In this document: positions 52,457 through 64,000 of the stretch, piece after piece | Layout: every line of letters starts with the position of its first letter | How positions within the stretch are numbered: position 1 is the stretch's first letter | NCBI GenBank assembly: GCA_913056455.1 | Contig: CAJXMJ010000002.1 | Span: 973,665-1,037,664 of the forward strand | Direction of reading: 5' to 3' | Source: an uncultured Fodinibius sp. | GTDB taxonomy: Bacteria; Bacteroidota; Rhodothermia; Balneolales; Balneolaceae | DNA: 64,000 bases | Notes under the pieces: generated by a model | What the model was told of the DNA's origin: nothing | The model's input: the letters and a program-made list of their open reading frames with translations, nothing else | The model's database searches: none | Made by a program: the position numbers and the translations under genes

Positions 52457-53341
52457 ATGCGCGTAACACAGAAAATTATTTTTGACAATTTCATGAGGGA
52501 TGTGAATAAAAACCGTAGAGAGATGGCTGAAATTCAGTCCGATCTTTCAAGCGGCAAGAAAGTTCGCATGCCCTCCCAAAGTCCGGTAGATTTTCAAAGT
52601 AGCCGAATTTTGGAAGCCGACCTGAATAAAATAGAGCAGTTCCAGAATAATATTAGCAGCGGTTTGCGTCAGGGGAGGTTGGCCCAGGACACTATGAACG
52701 GGGTTCTCGACAGCCTGATTAATATTAAGAACTCAATGGTACAGGGATCTTCTGACTCTATTGGAGAAGATGAACGGGTGAATTTAGCTGATGAAGTCTC
52801 GGGGATTCGCAAGCAAATTGTCGACAGTTTAAATATTCAATACGGTGAGCGGTACCTGTTTGCTGGGACTAACAGCGGTGAGAAGCCTTTTGAGCTGGCC
52901 GGGGGAGTGGTAACGAATAACAGTAATAACAAGCCACCCCATGTAGTTGCGGCAGATGGCGTAGAAATTGATATCAGTATTACAGGCGAAGAGGTCGCAG
53001 ATAGTCCGGCCGGTGATATGTTCCAGTTTATTGGGGACGTGGAAGATGCTTTACGGAATAATGATAATCAGCAACTTAACAATTTGCTTACGGATGCTGA
53101 TCAGGTAATAAATCATGTTACGGACCTCACGTCCAAGCTGGGAGATAACATCAATCGCATGGATTTCATGTTTGAGCAGTACGAGTCTACTAAGATTACA
53201 CAAGAATCAGATATAAGTGAGTTGGTCGATACCAACTATGCCAAAGCATTTTCTGATATGCAGCGCAACCAGGTAGCTTATGAATCGGCGATGGCGGTAC
53301 ATGGTAAAATGTTCGAAAACACCTTGCTGAATTACATCTAA
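52457..53341 (+). CDS. flgL: Hook-filament junction protein FlgL (HAP3)
   Basis: 294 residues. N-terminus IIFDNFMRDVNKNRREMAEIQ, then DLSSGKKVRMPSQSPVDFQSS, the flagellin-family start, and C-terminus NYAKAFSDMQRNQVAYESAMAV. It connects FlgK with the filament. The enzyme gene after it begins 37 bases later on the same strand. Confidence 0.92.
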   Translation: MRVTQKIIFDNFMRDVNKNRREMAEIQSDLSSGKKVRMPSQSPVDFQSSRILEADLNKIEQFQNNISSGLRQGRLAQDTMNGVLDSLINIKNSMVQGSSDSIGEDERVNLADEVSGIRKQIVDSLNIQYGERYLFAGTNSGEKPFELAGGVVTNNSNNKPPHVVAADGVEIDISITGEEVADSPAGDMFQFIGDVEDALRNNDNQQLNNLLTDADQVINHVTDLTSKLGDNINRMDFMFEQYESTKITQESDISELVDTNYAKAFSDMQRNQVAYESAMAVHGKMFENTLLNYI

Positions 53342-53378: not shown

Positions 53379-54734
53379 ATGGAAGCGGGACTTAAACCAA
53401 TATCAAATACAAATAAGGAGAACAAGAGTTTAGATTGGCTGACGGGCGTTCTATTTCTATCTGATCTAAAATTTTATGATGTAGAAAAGGTAAAACTTTG
53501 GGATACCTATTTCTCGGAACTGATTGTTGCAGGAATAGGGAGAAAGCCCGAAAGCTTCCCTGATAATGTACATTGGCATGCATATGAGGATGTCAGTCGA
53601 TCAGAAGTATGGAATGCCATCAACAAAAAGGCGAGTAATTCCTGGGTACTCTTTTTAGAAGATGATGAACAGCCTCGGTTTAGTAGTTTTCCCAATGTTC
53701 AGAGCTTGGAAAAAATGAAGTGGTCACCGGCTATTATAAATATTCAAAAGCAAAGTACTACGCATCATTTTTATCAGATGCGTTTGGTAAATGTATCGAT
53801 CAATGAGGATGATATTTTCAGAGGGTATCATTTAACTGATGCTACTGAGTTTGTGCGTTCCCAGGGAGTTGACTTAAGCAGCAAGCCGATTATTATTGAA
53901 CGGGAAAGCAGTGTTTATTCTCATATTGATATTGATAAGGAGTTGTCACTTAAAAAGCAGGCCCCCAAACTATATTTAGTACAGGGGAATCGATATTTGC
54001 AGGAAAAAAAATACGTTCGTGCAGCCGCCCAGTTCCGCCAATTGTTAAAAAAAGAAAGGTTGTTACCTTTTGATCGTTTGGCTGCCGTTAATGGGTTGGC
54101 CAGCTGCTTGGCTGAGCAGCATAAGTGGGAGAAAGCGCTGTCTTTAACAAAGCAATCGCTTGAGGCAGAATCATTGCAGCGGTTACCTTATTTAATACAA
54201 TTTCGTATTCATGAGTTGCGCAAGGAATGGCAAAAAGCGTTTGATGTATTAAGGCAATATTATGATAGACTATCATTATTTTCATCTGCCAGTTTTGACC
54301 GTAAGATTGATGAGGAGAAAAGTTTAATAAACCTTGCCAATATCGCGTTAAAAGCAGGACATCGTGCGAAAGCGACCGACTATTTTGATCGGCTGTTTTC
54401 ATTCAAGAGAGGCAATGCCGATGAGGCAATGTTAGAAAAAGCATTATTGCTTTCGATTGAATTGAATGATCTTGACCGATCGGTTTATTTGTTTGAGCGA
54501 ATGTATAACGATCATTTGCCGCCGAACAAGATGAATGGCGAGTCGAAGAAGCAGATAGATGAAGTTATGACGATGTTTATGAAGAAGGACTGGTACGACT
54601 ATGTCTCAAATATTTATAAAAAGTTACATGAGGCTTATCCGGAAGATCAGGAATATAAGCGAAAACTAATTGTGACGCTCACCAAGACAAATAGATTAGA
54701 CCAAGCTAAAAGGATGGTCGCAAATATTGTGTGA
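53379..54734 (+). CDS. TPR protein with N-terminal glycosyltransferase-like domain
   Basis: 451 residues. The first ~180 residues resemble a shortened GT2 (GT-A) domain: strands LTGVLFLSDL and ELIVAGIG, and an acidic SWVLFLEDDEQ in the place of the DxD motif. The remainder is a chain of TPR-type helical hairpins (LVQGNRYLQEKKYVRAAAQF, NGLASCLAEQHKWEKALSL). It sits between flgL and the cap genes, as do flagellin-modifying enzymes elsewhere. The truncated GT domain may be non-catalytic. It might bring glycosylation to flagellins or hook-associated proteins. Confidence 0.6.
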   Translation: MEAGLKPISNTNKENKSLDWLTGVLFLSDLKFYDVEKVKLWDTYFSELIVAGIGRKPESFPDNVHWHAYEDVSRSEVWNAINKKASNSWVLFLEDDEQPRFSSFPNVQSLEKMKWSPAIINIQKQSTTHHFYQMRLVNVSINEDDIFRGYHLTDATEFVRSQGVDLSSKPIIIERESSVYSHIDIDKELSLKKQAPKLYLVQGNRYLQEKKYVRAAAQFRQLLKKERLLPFDRLAAVNGLASCLAEQHKWEKALSLTKQSLEAESLQRLPYLIQFRIHELRKEWQKAFDVLRQYYDRLSLFSSASFDRKIDEEKSLINLANIALKAGHRAKATDYFDRLFSFKRGNADEAMLEKALLLSIELNDLDRSVYLFERMYNDHLPPNKMNGESKKQIDEVMTMFMKKDWYDYVSNIYKKLHEAYPEDQEYKRKLIVTLTKTNRLDQAKRMVANIV

Positions 54735-56498: not shown

Positions 56499-56849
56499 TT
56501 ATTTAAGGATCTTTGAGGCAATATCTCCCCAGACTTCCGGATCATTTATTTTCCGACCCATCTCTGTTTCTTGAGCAGCTTCAGCGGAATGCTCCGAAGC
56601 ATTAAGAAACTCAGAAACCTGAGCTTTCATTTCCTTAAACTGTTGTGATGAAGATTCGTTTAGTTTTTCCAATTCGAGTTTGGCAAAAAGTTGATCGTTA
56701 TTTCGAAACTGATAATCGCCAAGCGAAACTTTGTCTTTAGGAGTATTTCCAGAAGATTTTGATGTCTTCTCTGAAGCATTTCCTTCTGAAGTTTCGTTAG
56801 TCTTATTTATGTTATTATCGTTTATGCTATTTAATTTACTAATATCCAT
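56499..56849 (-). CDS. flgM: FlgM-like anti-sigma factor (tentative)
   Basis: 116 residues. The N-terminal ~40 are polar and disordered (MDISKLNSINDNNINKTN), followed by DKVSLGDYQF and two helices ending VWGDIASKILK. FlgM of other bacteria has the same plan: a disordered N-terminus, then DxVxLS and sigma-binding helices with an ending like IADALI. It is last in the fliS-fliD-fliT-like unit, which has its own sigma-28-type promoter, so FliA would drive its own inhibitor. Homology is weak, so the name is a hypothesis. Confidence 0.5.
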   Translation of the reverse strand: MDISKLNSINDNNINKTNETSEGNASEKTSKSSGNTPKDKVSLGDYQFRNNDQLFAKLELEKLNESSSQQFKEMKAQVSEFLNASEHSAEAAQETEMGRKINDPEVWGDIASKILK

Positions 56850-56888: not shown

Positions 56889-57230
56889 CTATCGTTTTAA
56901 AAGCTGATAGCTTTTTTCGGCCTTATTCCTTTTTATTGCATCGTTTAGCCGCTCTTTTGACTCCTCTAAAATGTAACTCAGTGCTTCTTGTATTTGTTGT
57001 TGTTGTTGCTTGAATCTATTAAAAAGTTTTTCCAGTGATTCTTTCTCTTTCTTCGTGAATGTTGTTGTATCAACTTCCGAAGTTATTTTTATAAACTCAT
57101 TTGTATGGTTGCCCCGTTCCTCAAACCGTTCTTTCAATAAATCAATATCAGCTTCGTCTTTGTGGAGCTGATTAAGAATCTTTCTATTAACTTTTATCAA
57201 CTTTTTTAGTTGATTGGCAACGTTATTCAT
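56889..57230 (-). CDS. fliT: FliT-like flagellar chaperone (tentative)
   Basis: 113 residues, all helical and charged, with heptads (LKKLIKVNRKILNQLHKDEA; FNRFKQQQQQIQEALSYILE). Placed directly after fliD (4-base gap), the normal place for fliT, which chaperones the cap protein. The sequence carries no motif specific enough to be certain. Confidence 0.6.
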   Translation of the reverse strand: MNNVANQLKKLIKVNRKILNQLHKDEADIDLLKERFEERGNHTNEFIKITSEVDTTTFTKKEKESLEKLFNRFKQQQQQIQEALSYILEESKERLNDAIKRNKAEKSYQLLKR

Positions 57231-57234
57231 TCTG

Positions 57235-58632
57235 TTAGAATCCTAATGTTGACTGCTGATTCGCAATTTGATTAAACTGTTGTTGAGCTTGTTGTTGCAT
57301 CTGGTTGATTTCAGCAAAAATTTCCCGTTGGCGTTCCTCATAGCTTTCCAGGTATTTTTCTTCCGATTCAATACGGTTATCCAGAAAATCTATTTTTTGA
57401 TCCAAGCCGCTTTCCAAGGATGAAATGGTACCACCTGTTTCAGTAAACGTTTTCGCGCGTTCATACATCTTGGTAACAGGAGAATCATCATTGGAGAATA
57501 GATTTTTAACTTCGTTGGGTCGATCGGTTAAGGCTTGACTCAACTTATCCGCGTCATCCACCTTCATTTTTCCGTTATTTTCGAAGGTGATACCGATTTC
57601 AGATAGGTTGTCAAGTTCTCCGGCTCCTGCAGAACCCATATCCGTAAGCGCCATCTGACGCATATTTATAGTCAGATTGCGCACCGAGCGCATGTCTTGC
57701 AATGGTCCTTTGTTGCCGGTCTCGCCATTGATAAAGGTTTGGTTGCGAATTTTGGTATTCATTTCATTGTACTTCGAAATAAAATCATCAATATTTTCGC
57801 GGGCCTTCTCCGTATCTTTTGAGACGGTAATTTGTTCTTGCTGAGTCGTTGAATTCAGTAATGTAAAGGTCATGCCTGATATAGCATCATCAACGGTATT
57901 TTTTCCACGGCTGAATGTAATACCATCTACTGTGAACTCAGCATCGAGCTTTGTCGTGTCTGCCTGTTGATGCGACATATTACTGGTAACATCAGCCAGT
58001 GCTCCGGTGGCATTGGCAAACTGGACGCGCTCATCATAGCCGGTCTGAGCACTTTTAATCGAAAGCTGTACATTGCCATTGTTATCCACTTCAAAAACAT
58101 CGCTGTCAGACTCTTCGCCCATTAAATCATTGACAGCCTTAGAAAACGATTCTAAAATTTCTTTGTTTGTCTTGTCCGTACCGTCGTCATTGGTACTTAG
58201 AATACTGATCGTTTCTGTTTTATCACCAATAGTAATATCCACAGAGCCATCTCCGCTGGCCGCCAGATCTGTTGCTGTCCCATCCATTACGTTCGACAGC
58301 ATAATATCTTTTGTGGCTTTTCGGTTTACCGAAATGTCATAAGTATTGGGATCTTTTAGCCCGGATATAGAGTCAACTCGTATGGCATCTTCATTACTTA
58401 TTGTAGCCTTTAAGGGATTAAAGCTGTTTGAGGTGGTACTGGTAAGTTCATCAACCTGGGAAGTAAAGTCGGAAATTACGGAACTTACTGTGCTAAGAGC
58501 AGACTGCTTGTCGCTGAGCTGACTTTTCTGGTCTTCGAGCCGAAACTTTTTTTGGCTCTCGATCAGCACCAGCTGGTCAACAAATTGTGAATAGGGATTG
58601 GTTTGTTGTAATAAGCTACCGATAGAATTCAT
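57235..58632 (-). CDS. fliD: Flagellar filament cap protein FliD (HAP2)
   Basis: 465 residues. N-terminal FliD_N coiled segment (VLIESQKKFRLEDQKSQLSD, FTSQVDELTSTTS), the D2/D3 beta region (about 90-290) and C-terminal coil (IESEEKYLESYEERQREIFA, FNQIANQQS). It caps the growing filament. Order fliS-fliD-fliT-like as in enterics. Confidence 0.93.
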   Translation of the reverse strand: MNSIGSLLQQTNPYSQFVDQLVLIESQKKFRLEDQKSQLSDKQSALSTVSSVISDFTSQVDELTSTTSNSFNPLKATISNEDAIRVDSISGLKDPNTYDISVNRKATKDIMLSNVMDGTATDLAASGDGSVDITIGDKTETISILSTNDDGTDKTNKEILESFSKAVNDLMGEESDSDVFEVDNNGNVQLSIKSAQTGYDERVQFANATGALADVTSNMSHQQADTTKLDAEFTVDGITFSRGKNTVDDAISGMTFTLLNSTTQQEQITVSKDTEKARENIDDFISKYNEMNTKIRNQTFINGETGNKGPLQDMRSVRNLTINMRQMALTDMGSAGAGELDNLSEIGITFENNGKMKVDDADKLSQALTDRPNEVKNLFSNDDSPVTKMYERAKTFTETGGTISSLESGLDQKIDFLDNRIESEEKYLESYEERQREIFAEINQMQQQAQQQFNQIANQQSTLGF

Positions 58633-58650
58633 AATATTATCTTTATCGGG

Positions 58651-58971
58651 TTAATCAGTTGCTGGTTCTTCTGTTTGCCCCTTTGAGGCTTGCTCCCAGG
58701 CATCACGCAGCGGTTCAAGAATGTCCCGAATTTCCTCGTAATTCTCATCACGGGCTAAATCCTGACAATATTGATAAAGTTGGAAAAGCTCCTCAGCAGG
58801 TTCATGATCGAAATTCAGACTTTCCGTCAACGTGTTTAGCACATCACGTACCCTGTCTTGATCTTTCCGGTAGGTTGCCTGCAGTAGCAAGTCGTATAGC
58901 TTTACGACCAGTTGTAATGGCGATGCGTTCATTATCGCTTGTTGCTGATAAACCTGTTGTGGATTCTGCAT
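58651..58971 (-). CDS. fliS: Flagellin export chaperone FliS
   Basis: 106 residues, helical bundle. YQQQAIMNASPLQLVVKLYDLLL is the FliS signature, then a second conserved helix (LNFDHEPAEELFQLYQYCQD). It binds flagellin before export. First gene of the operon, with a sigma-28-type promoter 44-70 bases upstream. No flagellin gene is seen in the window. Confidence 0.95.
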   Translation of the reverse strand: MQNPQQVYQQQAIMNASPLQLVVKLYDLLLQATYRKDQDRVRDVLNTLTESLNFDHEPAEELFQLYQYCQDLARDENYEEIRDILEPLRDAWEQASKGQTEEPATD

Positions 58972-59399: not shown

Positions 59400-62300
59400 G
59401 TGAACACATCTGATGTAGTTCAATACCAAAGCCAACGAATTCTCTCGACTGTGCAGAAAAAGATCAAACAAGCCCAAAAATACTTGGAGTGGGAAAAACC
59501 CAATCAGGCCATTGCCGAACTGAAACCCACTTTAGAAAGCAAGCAGATACAACAAGAGTATAAGTGGGTGCCCCACCATATGATGGGCATCGCTTTATCG
59601 CTCAAAGGTGAGCATGAGGCTTCGGCAGGATATTTGGAAAAAGCGGTGAAGTACGGTTCAGAGCAGCCTGAAACCTACCATATGCTTTCGGTAAACTATT
59701 TTAACCTTGCACGGTTTGACGAGGCTGAGAAGTATGGCAAGGAAACAGTAGTTCGAAAGAATGACTTCTTAAAAGCGTGGTTGAATTTGGGTTCGGTGTA
59801 CCGGGCGCAGGCAAAGCTGGATGAGGCGTTGGAATGTTATCAAAAAGCGAATCAAATTGATCCTACTAATGCTGGCGTAGCTTTCCGGATAGGTGAAATT
59901 TACCGTGATCAGGGTGATTTGGAGCAGGCCATGAAATTGTTTGACATCACTTTGAAGATAGAAGAAAATCATATCCGTGCGATGCTTGAGAAGGCGGATA
60001 TCTATAAAAAGAAAGGAGATTTGGATGAGGCGATTCAGAATCTTGAACAGGCAGAGGCGATTCACGGAGATCAAACCCCCATTGAAGTAAGTAAGGCCGA
60101 AATTTATAAGTCCCGCGGAAAATATGATGATGCTATTGCCCTATATGAACGGTTGCTTGAGAAGCACCCTGATAGCGGAGCATTGCGCGTAAACTATGCG
60201 TTGTGTTTACAAGAGGTGAGCCGGTTTGACCAATGTGAAAAGAACTACCGGCGCGCTATTCAGGATATGGAGGATCCCGGGAGTGCTATTTCGAATTATC
60301 TGATGGGATTGCACTATAATCCTCGAAATAGCAAAGAGTATATATATAATGAGCACGTTAGACTTGGTAAGACCTTTACACCTCTAAACGGATCAGATCG
60401 TGCAGTACCAACCGATGTGAGCCTGAATAAAAGGCTGAAGATAGGTTTTGTATCTGCAGGATTTCGTCGTCACCCGGTAGGTTGGATGATTGCCGGTGCC
60501 TTAGAGCAACTGCCCGAAAAAGATTTTGAGCTATACTGTTATACAACAAACAATAAGTTCGATTTTGTAACCCGTCGGATTCATGAAAATATAGATACCT
60601 GGCGATCGGTTGTGGGATACAGTTCTGAAGTTATTGAAAATATTGTCCGGGAAGACGAACTGGATATATTGGTGGATTTGTCGGGGCATTCCGCTGATAA
60701 TTGTCTTGAAGTGATGGCGAATGAGCCAGCACCTGTCATTGTAAAATGGGTAGGTGGACTGTTTAATACTACCGGTCTCGAAGCCTTTGATTATTTAATT
60801 ACTGATGAGTATGAGAGTCCGTTGGGAGAGGAGCAGTTCTATACAGAAAAGCTGGTGCGAATGCCTGATGACTATATTTCATTTGCGCCTCCGGCCTATG
60901 CCTCGGATGTAAAGTCTCTTCCGGCAAAAGAGAAAGGGTACATAACATTCGGATGTTTTAATAATCCCACCAAAGTGAATGATGTAGTCCTGAAGAAATG
61001 GGCTGAAATCATGCGCCGGGTATCGAATAGCAGACTTTACCTGAAGAGCAAGCAGTATGATACCGACTCGTTCCGAGAGCAGATACTGAAAGTTATGGAG
61101 AAGGAAGATATAGCTGAAGATCGCATCGAATTTGAGGGACATACTTCCCACGATGATCACTTAGATGCATATAATAAAGTGGATATTGCCCTTGATCCGT
61201 GGCCGTATTCAGGAGGATTGACGACATGTGAAGCACTATTTATGGGGGTGCCGGTTATTACGATGCCGGGGCCTACCTTTGCCGGACGACATTCGACAAC
61301 GCACCTCATAAATGCCGGATTGGAACAGTGGATTACAGATAGTTGGGGAGCATATACTGAGAAAACAGTTACCCTGGCGAACAATTGGGATGAATTGCAG
61401 AAATGGCGATCGACCTTGCGTGAGCAGTTGCTTAATTCTCCTGTTTGTAATGGTAAGCGTTTTGGAGCTCATCTTTCTGTTGCTTTTCGGGAAATGTGGA
61501 AGCAGCGGGTGGAAGGGTATGAGAATGGTGTTGAGGAATGGCAGGATCATATCACGATAAATTCTCTCTCGGAGGAGGAAGTGCAGGTGTTGACCGACGG
61601 TCCGGAGACTACTCCACTTATTACTGTCAAAGGTACGACGGGTATTGAGGCCAATGACAGAACGAAGAATGAGGATATTCAAAATAAAACAATGGAAGAA
61701 TCAATGATTGACACCAAGGAGATCGTAAAAGAGGTAACACAAAATGGGAATGGACAGCCTAAGAAGAATGGTACGACTGGAGCACATGTCAATTCACCTG
61801 ATAATGACCAAGAAGATTATTTTATAGAAACAAAAGATGGAATCACTATTTGTACTCCTGCTGATTTGGATGTATTGACAACCCATGTGATGCTCGAGCA
61901 GGAAGAATGGTTTGAGCCTGAACTGGATTTTATTCGTGATTATCTAAAGCCCGGCACACAAGTAGTTGATGTGGGAGCTTCTTTTGGCGCGTATGCCTTG
62001 CCGATGGCCAAAAAGGTGGGAAGTGAAGGTAAAGTGGTTGCTTTTGAGCCGTCTGTAAGCTGTCGATCCTATCTCGAGAGAAGTAAGGTGGAAAACAGGG
62101 TGGGTCAGCTGGAAATAATTAGCCGAGGGTTATCAAATAAAGTCGGGAAAGCAACATTCGTTGAAGCTGAAACGCCGGAATTTAATACCACTTCAGAGGA
62201 AGGGGATACAGAAATATCTGTTACTACTCTAAATGCCTGGTGGAATTTTGCCGGACAGCCGGAACTGGATCTCATTAAAATTGATGTCAATGGTATGGAG

Positions 62301-64000
62301 GCAAAGGTTTTGGAAGGGGCTACAGAAGTTCTTGATCAAGTGTCGCCCGTTATTCTTGTGGCTATTGGAGAAAAAGAAGATAGTTTTTATACACTCCGAG
62401 ATACATTGCAGGAGCTTAATTACCGATTGTTTGAATACATTCCGGGACCGGGAGTATTAGCGGAGCATGATCCTGAGGGGGGAGTTGATCCCTATTTGAT
62501 GAATGTGATTGCTATTCCTGCAAGCAGGATAGAAGAGGTTAAGGAAAACGGCTGGATTTTTGATGAACATGCAGATGTGGAGCCTGTGGATGTACATGAA
62601 TGGAAGAGTGTGTTGAGAAAGATGCCCTGGGCTGATTCTCAGTTTGAAAAGTGGGAAAAGCAGATAAGTTCACAAGAACATAGTGAATACCTGCAGGCAT
62701 TGAGCTTGGCAGTGGCCGCTGAAAAGATGAAGGTTGTTAATGATAATCCCAAGGCCCGTACCCAGAAGGGAGCGCGATTGTTAGAGGCTGCTCAAAAACT
62801 AATCGCTTTATTTAATAATGGTAATGCTGGTATCGCTGCTGCAATGACATACGTACGCGTGATGAGTCAGCTGGGTAAGCGCCGCCAAGCAGTGGAGATG
62901 ATGAAGCAGCTGATGGAAACAGTAAATTCCGGCAACAATGTTTCAGTTGGGTTACCTTTTCTCCCCCCGCTTCAAGAGCAGGATGAGACCAAAATACAGA
63001 CCGATTTTTCCAAATGGCTGATGGTACGGATAGTAGAAGGATGGATTTCGTTGAAGAATCCTACGATCTACATGGCTGATGAGAAAGATCGGCAGATGTT
63101 GGAGGCGCTGGAAGGCAATCCGGAAAGGGCCAATACAATTTTACTAAAACCAAAGAAAGAAGAAGGGATTAGGAAAGTAAGAGAACAAGCGGGACAATCG
63201 ATCCCTAATGAAAATAGAAAAGAAGGAAGAGACTCAAACGCATTATGGTTTAAAACTGCTTTAAATCTAATCAAAGTTAATGGTCCCAAAAGCATTCGCA
63301 GTCACAATTTGCCTAATAGGTTAATTGTATCTCTAACTTCATATCCGGATCGTTTTGAGCAACTTCCTTTAACTCTTTTAAGTTTAATACAGCAAACGGT
63401 AAAACCTGATAAGATTCTTTTGTGGATTGCCCATGAAGATAAATCTGAGATAACTTCTGAAATTAGATTTCTTGAGAAATTAGGAGTGGAAATATCTTTT
63501 TGTGAGGATTTGAGATCATATAAAAAGATAATACCTACACTTAAAAAGTATCCCGATTCATATATAGTTACTGCTGATGACGACTTGTATTACAAAAATA
63601 ATTGGTTAGAGGAATTAGTTGATAGTTGGGATGGAAACAATAAAACTATTGTGGCACATCGTGCACATAGAATTAAGTTTAACAACAACGGGGATATTAA
63701 ACCATATCGTGAATGGGGATGGGAGTATAAAAAGGACCACGAGGCATCTGTTTATAATTTCGCTACTTGTGGTGCTGGGGCATTATTTCCACCAAATGTC
63801 TTTCACGAAGATGTCTCGGAGGTTGAGCAGTTTGAAGCGTTGGCGCCAACCGCAGATGATTTGTGGTTATATTGGATGAGCAGGTTAAATGGGGCAAGAA
63901 TAAAAGTAGCCAATCAGCCACAACCACTTGTTGAATGGCCATTATCTAAACAAAATAGTCTGTGGCAGAAAAATATATTGGAAGGCAAAAATGATGAGCA
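59400..64000 (+). CDS. Giant TPR / O-GlcNAc-transferase-like (GT41) / FkbM methyltransferase / glycosyltransferase fusion, 3' end cut by window
   Basis: I read the frame from GTG 59400 to the window end codon by codon: 1,533 codons and no stop. The start is tentative; the upstream in-frame stop is at 59373 and no ATG occurs before about 59580. Order: TPR repeats (about 1-330); GT41 domain (about 346-705) with base-candidate His430 in DLSGHSADN, Lys549 in LYLKSKQ, and the UDP-sugar loop PYSGGLTTCEALFMGVPV (about 603-620, Glu611); Asn/Lys-rich linker (about 725-808); FkbM-type methyltransferase (about 809-1030) with SAM loop VVDVGASFGAYA (855-866); a helical region (about 1040-1295); a GT-A-like domain (from about 1306, LIVSLTSYPDR) with an Asp triad 1393-1395 in TADDDLYY. 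It adjoins the filament-cap genes and is a likely glycosylation enzyme for flagellin or cap proteins. Confidence 0.85.
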   Translation, partial: MNTSDVVQYQSQRILSTVQKKIKQAQKYLEWEKPNQAIAELKPTLESKQIQQEYKWVPHHMMGIALSLKGEHEASAGYLEKAVKYGSEQPETYHMLSVNYFNLARFDEAEKYGKETVVRKNDFLKAWLNLGSVYRAQAKLDEALECYQKANQIDPTNAGVAFRIGEIYRDQGDLEQAMKLFDITLKIEENHIRAMLEKADIYKKKGDLDEAIQNLEQAEAIHGDQTPIEVSKAEIYKSRGKYDDAIALYERLLEKHPDSGALRVNYALCLQEVSRFDQCEKNYRRAIQDMEDPGSAISNYLMGLHYNPRNSKEYIYNEHVRLGKTFTPLNGSDRAVPTDVSLNKRLKIGFVSAGFRRHPVGWMIAGALEQLPEKDFELYCYTTNNKFDFVTRRIHENIDTWRSVVGYSSEVIENIVREDELDILVDLSGHSADNCLEVMANEPAPVIVKWVGGLFNTTGLEAFDYLITDEYESPLGEEQFYTEKLVRMPDDYISFAPPAYASDVKSLPAKEKGYITFGCFNNPTKVNDVVLKKWAEIMRRVSNSRLYLKSKQYDTDSFREQILKVMEKEDIAEDRIEFEGHTSHDDHLDAYNKVDIALDPWPYSGGLTTCEALFMGVPVITMPGPTFAGRHSTTHLINAGLEQWITDSWGAYTEKTVTLANNWDELQKWRSTLREQLLNSPVCNGKRFGAHLSVAFREMWKQRVEGYENGVEEWQDHITINSLSEEEVQVLTDGPETTPLITVKGTTGIEANDRTKNEDIQNKTMEESMIDTKEIVKEVTQNGNGQPKKNGTTGAHVNSPDNDQEDYFIETKDGITICTPADLDVLTTHVMLEQEEWFEPELDFIRDYLKPGTQVVDVGASFGAYALPMAKKVGSEGKVVAFEPSVSCRSYLERSKVENRVGQLEIISRGLSNKVGKATFVEAETPEFNTTSEEGDTEISVTTLNAWWNFAGQPELDLIKIDVNGMEAKVLEGATEVLDQVSPVILVAIGEKEDSFYTLRDTLQELNYRLFEYIPGPGVLAEHDPEGGVDPYLMNVIAIPASRIEEVKENGWIFDEHADVEPVDVHEWKSVLRKMPWADSQFEKWEKQISSQEHSEYLQALSLAVAAEKMKVVNDNPKARTQKGARLLEAAQKLIALFNNGNAGIAAAMTYVRVMSQLGKRRQAVEMMKQLMETVNSGNNVSVGLPFLPPLQEQDETKIQTDFSKWLMVRIVEGWISLKNPTIYMADEKDRQMLEALEGNPERANTILLKPKKEEGIRKVREQAGQSIPNENRKEGRDSNALWFKTALNLIKVNGPKSIRSHNLPNRLIVSLTSYPDRFEQLPLTLLSLIQQTVKPDKILLWIAHEDKSEITSEIRFLEKLGVEISFCEDLRSYKKIIPTLKKYPDSYIVTADDDLYYKNNWLEELVDSWDGNNKTIVAHRAHRIKFNNNGDIKPYREWGWEYKKDHEASVYNFATCGAGALFPPNVFHEDVSEVEQFEALAPTADDLWLYWMSRLNGARIKVANQPQPLVEWPLSKQNSLWQKNILEGKNDE

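Follow-up and report, generated by a model that had tools for sequence, protein, structure and literature searches.

The window, the whole stretch of 64,000 nucleotides analysed here, comes from an uncultured Fodinibius sp. (Balneolaceae; assembly GCA_913056455.1, contig CAJXMJ010000002.1) and contains, on its forward strand, most of a very long glycosylation gene (59451..64000, cut by the window end; placed by its open reading frame, the parent genome and a comparison of starts). Judging from sequence comparison, its product is most probably a multi-catalytic cytoplasmic flagellin O-glycosyltransferase of the TPR-GT41 kind, in which an exchangeable end behind a shared core would diversify the glycan. 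The evidence computed here consists of the domains, their conserved motifs, the linkage to flagellar genes and the incongruence between end module and core.

As the original prediction for this DNA had it, a single uninterrupted frame of more than 1,530 codons is present: it begins at GTG 59400 and is still open where the window stops (1,533 codons). In the parent genome (G000; 3.28 Mb, 7 contigs; glycosylation locus L003) the gene occupies L003:3065-8332, encodes 1,755 amino acids (aa) from GTG 59400 with 0 internal stops, and ends in a TAA (L003:8330-8332) that extension of the contig, one of the checks proposed at the outset, located 667 bases past the window end. Residue numbers below are counted from GTG 59400. 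That in-frame GTG, the start assumed originally, is unlikely to be the true one, because in 18 of 20 relatives the counterpart of GTG 59451 is the first start codon past the upstream stop (codons printed for 9); the exceptions, L048 and L053, have frames that begin farther up. The protein thus probably starts at GTG 59451 and has 1,738 aa. A frameshift or assembly-join artefact was rejected as unlikely, since the complete architecture was found again in full-length orthologues of G018 (78% identity) and G024 (52%) and every section of the gene is under purifying selection against G018 (pN/pS 0.10-0.41). A Sulfotransfer_2 gene (Pfam) starts 23 bases after the glycosylation gene, and the contig ends about 500 bases beyond it.

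Domains of the core and of the end module

All four kinds of domain named in the original prediction (TPR, GT41, FkbM and GT-A-like) gave Pfam matches, those to GT41, FkbM and Glycos_transf_2 above their cut-offs; a domain search for GT41 and FkbM had been suggested. TPR families cover about residues 20-290 (59457..60269, +), where TPR matches also appeared in the PDB sequence search. This TPR N-terminus is joined to a GT-B type glycosyltransferase, the SPINDLY-like GT41 domain (60432..61499, +; residues 345-700), identified by Pfam (Glyco_transf_41, 131.9 bits, cut-off 25), a PDB match and the alignment. Among solved structures, SPINDLY (PDB 7y4i, 8dtf; 260 bits over the catalytic part) comes closest in sequence to the TPR-GT41 part; it is a plant protein O-fucosyltransferase and is not known to have an FkbM domain, a GT-A domain or a second methyltransferase. 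H358, H430, K525, K549 and the PYSGGLTT motif of GT41 are invariant across 18 of 18 aligned Balneolales rows. His430, proposed from the letters alone as a catalytic residue, does align with SPINDLY H571; the lysine proposed along with it, Lys549, aligns with SPINDLY 689, and it is Lys525 (in CFNNPTK) that aligns with K665. We take SPINDLY Lys665, or Lys842 of human OGT, to be the functional lysine and presume the active-site roles of the histidine and lysine.

The next domain is an FkbM-family methyltransferase (61962..62429, +; residues 855-1010, with the motif VVDVGASFGAY), matched by Pfam (Methyltransf_21/FkbM PF05050, 65.9 bits, cut-off 22.7, residues 857-1010) and NCBIfam (TIGR01444, 78.8, cut-off 37.7). 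Modelled together with the helical tail behind it at a predicted local distance difference test score (pLDDT) of 91.6, it shows a Rossmann-type fold and has as its top Foldseek match the FkbM methyltransferase 2py6 (E 2.1e-7). The tail (62598..63125, +), defined by alignment, model and pairwise conservation, belongs to the shared core and ends in the LEGNPE joint (63108-63125); no TPR family matched it, though its helix pairing appears TPR-like.

Behind the joint, the first part of the exchangeable C-terminal module is a GT-A glycosyltransferase (63288..64000, +, continuing past the window), supported by Pfam, alignment and model; Glycos_transf_2 scored 25.8 in the full protein and 26.0 in the C-terminal part alone (cut-off 23.3). 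The TADDDLYY motif that had been picked out for this last glycosyltransferase lies at 63570-63593 (+) in the alignment, and its TADDD, a DxD motif, is invariant in 8 of 8 aligned rows. More domains do follow, as had been expected: beyond the window end, after the GT-A part, Pfam places a second S-adenosylmethionine (SAM) methyltransferase on the same strand, with SAM methyltransferase families over the end of the protein (Methyltransf_11 25.0 in the C-terminal part alone, cut-off 21.2) and an alignment covered by three full sequences. The terminal methyltransferase also has stand-alone relatives at G003:C1:1574190-1574777 (54%) and G006:C4:195235-195831 (51%, one in-frame TGA), in genomes with no FliD or GT41 matches.

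Because the end of the gene's own module falls outside the window, the fold of the module was computed on the L056 copy, which is 87% identical to it. Structure prediction, likewise suggested as a check, gave the FkbM-plus-tail fold and a good model of the GT-A half. The GT-A half superposes on heparosan synthase 2 (8viw) with Z 20.0 and a root-mean-square deviation of 3.1 over 231 aligned residues, on EXTL2 (1on8) with Z 17.6 and on KfiA (5z8b) with Z 17.0. Identity to these GT-A transferases of N-acetylglucosamine (GlcNAc) or N-acetylhexosamine (HexNAc) is just 14-16%; by the model, the fold is nearest to alpha-GlcNAc/HexNAc transferases. The GT-A part had no sequence match in the PDB at E 0.1, and its likeness to GT64/GT45 is one of fold only.

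FkbM-type domains are known O-methyltransferases of sugars and polyketides. This background argues against the alternative that the methyltransferase domains act on side chains of the flagellin protein and not on sugar, which we regard as improbable. Published systems fall on both sides: enterobacteria have FliB flagellin methylation islands (PMC4875605), and in C. difficile a single protein was proposed by the authors to extend and methylate (rhamnose) the flagellin glycan (PMC5207246). That type B GT2 protein resembles ours in combining a glycosyltransferase and a methyltransferase in one flagellin-locus protein; unlike ours it is a Pfam 00535 enzyme of a Firmicute, and TPR or GT41 go unmentioned in the part of the source consulted.

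Exchange of the end module

Neighbourhoods were read at 21 Balneolaceae loci, our own and those of 20 relatives among 29 GT41 genomes; the other genomes (G023, G026, G029, G038, G072, G083, G084 and G087) are known from match rows. The full TPR-GT41-FkbM-tail core is present in 20 of the 29. Core, tail and module stand in one constant order in 18 of the 21 loci, those with a readable end and core; the remaining three are L052 and two loci truncated at a contig end, L046 and L049. In pairwise comparison the core domains are highly identical up to about residue 1245, beyond which identity depends on the pair, and in most pairs conservation ends at the LEGNPE joint. L034 resembles the window gene right through to the C-terminus, with 86-90% identity in the GT-A and methyltransferase domains. 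For L035 the identity is 81-84% in TPR/GT41 and 3-17% behind the joint, its end being a second FkbM, and L036, with 43-62% in TPR/GT41, shares the same GT-A/methyltransferase end at 57-59%. As this exchange is invisible from the window alone, the original prediction missed it.

Among the 18 core members with a readable C-terminus we distinguished eight end-module types, ten members being typed by Pfam and the rest by blastp: GT-A plus methyltransferase (3), second FkbM (4), Glyco_trans_1_2 GT-B (2), GT2 plus GT-B (3), GT56 (3), and one each with a weak kinase-like part, with GT2 plus an unassigned part (L045) and with another FkbM. L073 and L075 end in a module of the second-FkbM type too. Some types are kin: the GT-B parts of the Glyco_trans_1_2 and GT2-plus-GT-B types are 30-37% identical, as are the GT2 parts of the GT2-plus-GT-B and GT2-plus-unassigned types. 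The kinase-like module (L044:1203-3029, -) had weak Pkinase, RIO1, DUF4135 and Kdo matches (E 0.0002-0.009), all below cut-off.

Module and core are incongruent. A core tree was built from the TPR-GT41 part with 32 rows, 21 of them labelled by module; L046, L049 and nine proteobacterial rows were left unlabelled, L052 was labelled type B by eye and then by phmmer (E 9.7e-80 to the L035 module), and L064, whose C-terminal part of 323 aa had no match among the other modules, was excluded. In an approximately unbiased (AU) test, for which the group was chosen after inspection of the core tree, a single clade of L003, L034 and L036 was rejected (delta lnL 494, p-AU 0.00015). Bordetella ansorpii (L120) carries a copy of the window gene's module, 48% identical, and adding it to the clade constraint cost 689 log-likelihood units. 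Base composition also changes within the window gene, the guanine-plus-cytosine (GC) fraction being 0.36 in the module vs 0.44-0.46 in TPR, GT41, FkbM and tail; in 18 of 18 rows the module is poorer in GC than the GT41 part. Compared with L034, the synonymous difference amounts to 0.55-0.79 ahead of the joint and to 0.33-0.43 past it, the pattern that a more recent sharing of the module than of the core would leave.

The same activities occur in fused and in split form. L041, L050 and L051 have GT56 as their end module, L052 as a separate TPR-GT56 gene directly downstream; sulfotransferase, a gene of its own at L003, comes after GT-A and FkbM within the same protein in Chromohalobacter (L109), where one chain of 1,754 aa holds GT41, a GT-A 53% identical to that of the window gene, FkbM and sulfotransferase. 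A sulfotransferase as common neighbour of the Bordetella ansorpii gene was considered and rejected, that neighbour being a methyltransferase. L039 and L040 have, two genes downstream of the main gene, a second long gene (L039:4807-7551 and L040:4276-7020, -; 914 aa) with an FkbM-plus-tail core and a GT-B end, lacking TPR-GT41 (Pfam on L039 only). The separate sulfotransferase at L003, the TPR-GT56 gene of L052 and the 914 aa FkbM/GT-B gene would suit a different explanation, namely that fusion only equalises the amounts of independent enzymes, the GT-A and methyltransferase domains acting on free or lipid-linked sugars or a different glycan and leaving the flagellin in the grasp of the TPRs untouched. 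We think this rather unlikely, with the order of core, tail and module so constant and with the separate GT56 gene of L052 bringing TPRs of its own, as though every enzyme required that grip.

Genes for DegT aminotransferases are found downstream of Glyco_trans_1_2 (L037, L042), GT2-plus-GT-B (L038), GT56 (L041, L050, L052) and GT2 (L045) modules, NTP_transferase genes in L037, L042 and L045, and hexapeptide genes in L037, L042, L041 and L052. Among the scanned loci with GT-B, GT2 or GT56 ends, a scan that left out L051 and several others, no single nucleotide-sugar gene was tied to one module.

The flagellar setting

The link of the GT41 gene to flagella, part of the original prediction, is strong. 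In the window, fliS (58651..58971, -; Pfam FliS) is divergent from the glycosylation gene and is followed by fliD for the filament cap (57235..58632, -; Pfam FliD_N/FliD_C). Of 92 Balneolaceae genomes, 29 have GT41 above cut-off and 33 have FliD_N; 28 have the two together. In 19 of the 21 loci read, the glycosylation gene and fliS point away from each other, 0.3-1 kb apart; the exceptions are L045 (2.2 kb away, with one larger open reading frame (ORF) between) and the rearranged L043. Flagellin-like genes besides flgL lie inside 13 of the 20 relatives' loci, and five of them (L034, L035, L044) were checked by Pfam.

A scan of named genomes extended this. The nearest relatives are Fodinibius/Aliifodinibius, and GT41 relatives of 46-54% identity come mostly from gamma- and betaproteobacteria (Pseudomonas, Halomonas and its relatives, Bordetella, Achromobacter, Microbulbifer and others). 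The named loci are the best 80 of 157 with two conserved peptide patterns, chosen by likeness to the glycosylation gene and no sample of all GT41, and some of the genomes also figured in the family search. A flagellar gene lies no more than about 2.3 kb away in 79 of these 80 loci, which come from several phyla; in the proteobacteria it is mostly a flagellin immediately upstream. Any phmmer or tblastn match at E 1e-5 with flagellin, FliD or FliS as seed was counted as a flagellar gene, flgL-like genes included. In L061, L065 and L107 the closest one is at 1.7-2.3 kb, and in L101, the one locus with none, the GT41 ORF lies 180 bases from the contig start. The longest-ORF filter lets antisense ORFs mask flagellins, and a recheck of 12 loci by tblastn, seeded with flagellins, turned one up in 11; owing to the same filter the N-terminal length of the L104 ORF (1,747 aa) is unreliable. 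The view that the neighbourhood is unusual had to be given up: a GT41 gene beside flagellin or fliS/fliD genes is the rule among the fetched relatives, and islands with GT41 and methyltransferase domains were described in 2016 (PMC4875605).

Further upstream in the window, the only Flagellin_N match of the assembly (52457..53341, +; Pfam) is a hook-associated protein gene which we take to be flgL from its size and its position after flgK. Between it and a sigma-54 type regulator sits a gene (53379-54734, +) whose 451 aa product has TPRs at its C-terminus and, in its N-terminal part, the stretch WVLFLEDDEQPRF, which on visual inspection resembles GT-A. Its Pfam matches are mostly TPR, it had no sequence match in the PDB at E 0.01, and homologues occur in the loci of 12 of the 20 relatives (some loci stop before that place); it may be a second protein for flagellar modification or regulation. 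The stretch from the sigma-54 regulator to fliD holds two small ORFs (56499-56849 and 56889-57230, -) that had no Pfam match, and small ORFs of similar size occupy the same place in most relatives' loci.

Proposed function and the evidence against it

The TPR domain of FlmG of Caulobacter crescentus binds flagellins, and FlmG suffices for glycosylation (PMC7591256); in Dickeya dadantii mutant A4277, whose affected gene lies between fliA and fliC and encodes an O-linked N-acetylglucosamine transferase, FliC has 28,890 Da vs 32,170 in the wild type (PMC6637903). Because of these two precedents, the TPRs should hold flagellin in the cytoplasm before export and GT41 should attach the first sugar to Ser/Thr; by analogy with FlmG, the TPR superhelix is likely the flagellin-binding part. 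The GT-A domain would then extend this first sugar, and FkbM and the terminal SAM methyltransferase, together with the separate sulfotransferase, would cap the glycan. Addition of a sugar, its extension and its methylation in one chain, as originally suggested, is plausible from the domains present. We infer the order of action, the sugars, channelling, flagellin as the substrate and methylation of sugar instead of protein. The C-terminal module would act as a cassette swapped by recombination at or near the LEGNPE joint, through which lineages with similar cores would come to have different flagellar glycans. A bolder version is possible, and we advance it tentatively: a glycan assembly line in a single polypeptide, with GT41, GT-A, FkbM and methyltransferase working one after another on flagellin gripped by the TPRs, whose domain content spells the glycan and whose terminal cassettes swap at one fixed joint between species and even phyla, which would rewrite the flagellar surface.

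FlmG, a cytoplasmic flagellin O-glycosyltransferase as our protein probably is, shares with it the TPR N-terminus joined to a GT-B domain; it differs in having 596 aa, one glycosyltransferase domain and pseudaminic acid, against about 1,738 aa and four catalytic domains here (PMC7591256). Also close are the enterobacterial flagellin islands, in which GT41/SPINDLY (COG3914) is fused to an AdoMet-methyltransferase at the flagellin locus, near sugar-modifying genes, and all but eight GT41-11 enzymes also contain methyltransferase domains; the part of that source consulted mentions no further glycosyltransferase in the chain and no exchange of a C-terminal module (De Maayer & Cowan 2016, PMC4875605). 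Aeromonas Fgi-1 (PMC7874193), a small GT2 protein, was dismissed as a different kind. GT41 with a methyltransferase at flagellin loci is thus already described, and what is new is the modularity behind a shared core. The combined architecture, with further glycosyltransferases, shared core and exchanged end, was not found described in PubMed Central literature, subscription papers lying mostly outside the search. In our own genome the methyltransferase-bearing GT41 chain is seen beside fliS/fliD; that the locus is a flagellin locus would follow from the relatives and the contig end.

Several observations weigh against the reading of the protein as a modular flagellin O-glycosyltransferase. The full core is missing from nine of the 29 GT41 genomes: G083, G084, G087 (694-700 aa) and G038 (662 aa) have space for TPR-GT41 only, G022, G023, G026 and G029 have frames of 982-995 aa, GT41 in G022 (read as L052) being fused straight to another FkbM similar to module B, and the 788 aa frame of G072 is cut at a contig edge. 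The core FkbM is weakly conserved in L050, L051 and L053 (25-28% identity; large gap in L053), and its methyl step may therefore be dispensable. The terminal methyltransferase half of the L056 model is poor, mostly below pLDDT 60. Module types weakly follow the core tree, with 11 changes over the 21 labelled rows against a mean of 13.2 in shuffles, 8 of 200 of which reached 11 or fewer. Five of the 33 FliD genomes (G037, G043, G053, G082, G088) have no GT41 above cut-off, the match of G043 being below it, and one of the 29 GT41 genomes, G038, has no FliD. The last would fit a general SPINDLY-like protein O-glycosyltransferase placed at flagellar genes by chance, an idea that the counts for the other 28 genomes and for 79 of the 80 named loci make scarcely credible.

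Finally, the own assembly contains no fliC among its Flagellin_N matches, the flgL-type gene being the sole one, and the contig end (contig C2 of G000; L003:9046-9543) stops about 30 bases short of the expected first flagellin gene. At its very end the contig has 61 bases that match, at 90% identity, the region 32-91 bases ahead of the first L034 flagellin, and the assembly therefore probably broke at the flagellin genes. The missing fliC and the divergent placement from fliS/fliD in Balneolaceae would also agree with another flagellar substrate, the cap protein FliD or the hook-associated FlgK/FlgL in place of filament flagellin. We hold this to be very unlikely, given that proteobacterial relatives mostly have a flagellin just upstream and that Balneolaceae flagellins are often downstream.

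Filament flagellin thus stays our preferred substrate, and the exchanged end probably alters the flagellar sugar coat. Known variation among flagellin glycan loci takes the form of gene islands; in this case a large share of it lies inside one protein, behind a shared core and a sharp joint. This raises the testable questions of whether the module content of one polypeptide predicts the glycan and whether the end module is under diversifying exchange, through phage or grazer pressure or surface recognition. Modules common to Balneolota and Proteobacteria would offer parts for building defined protein O-glycans.

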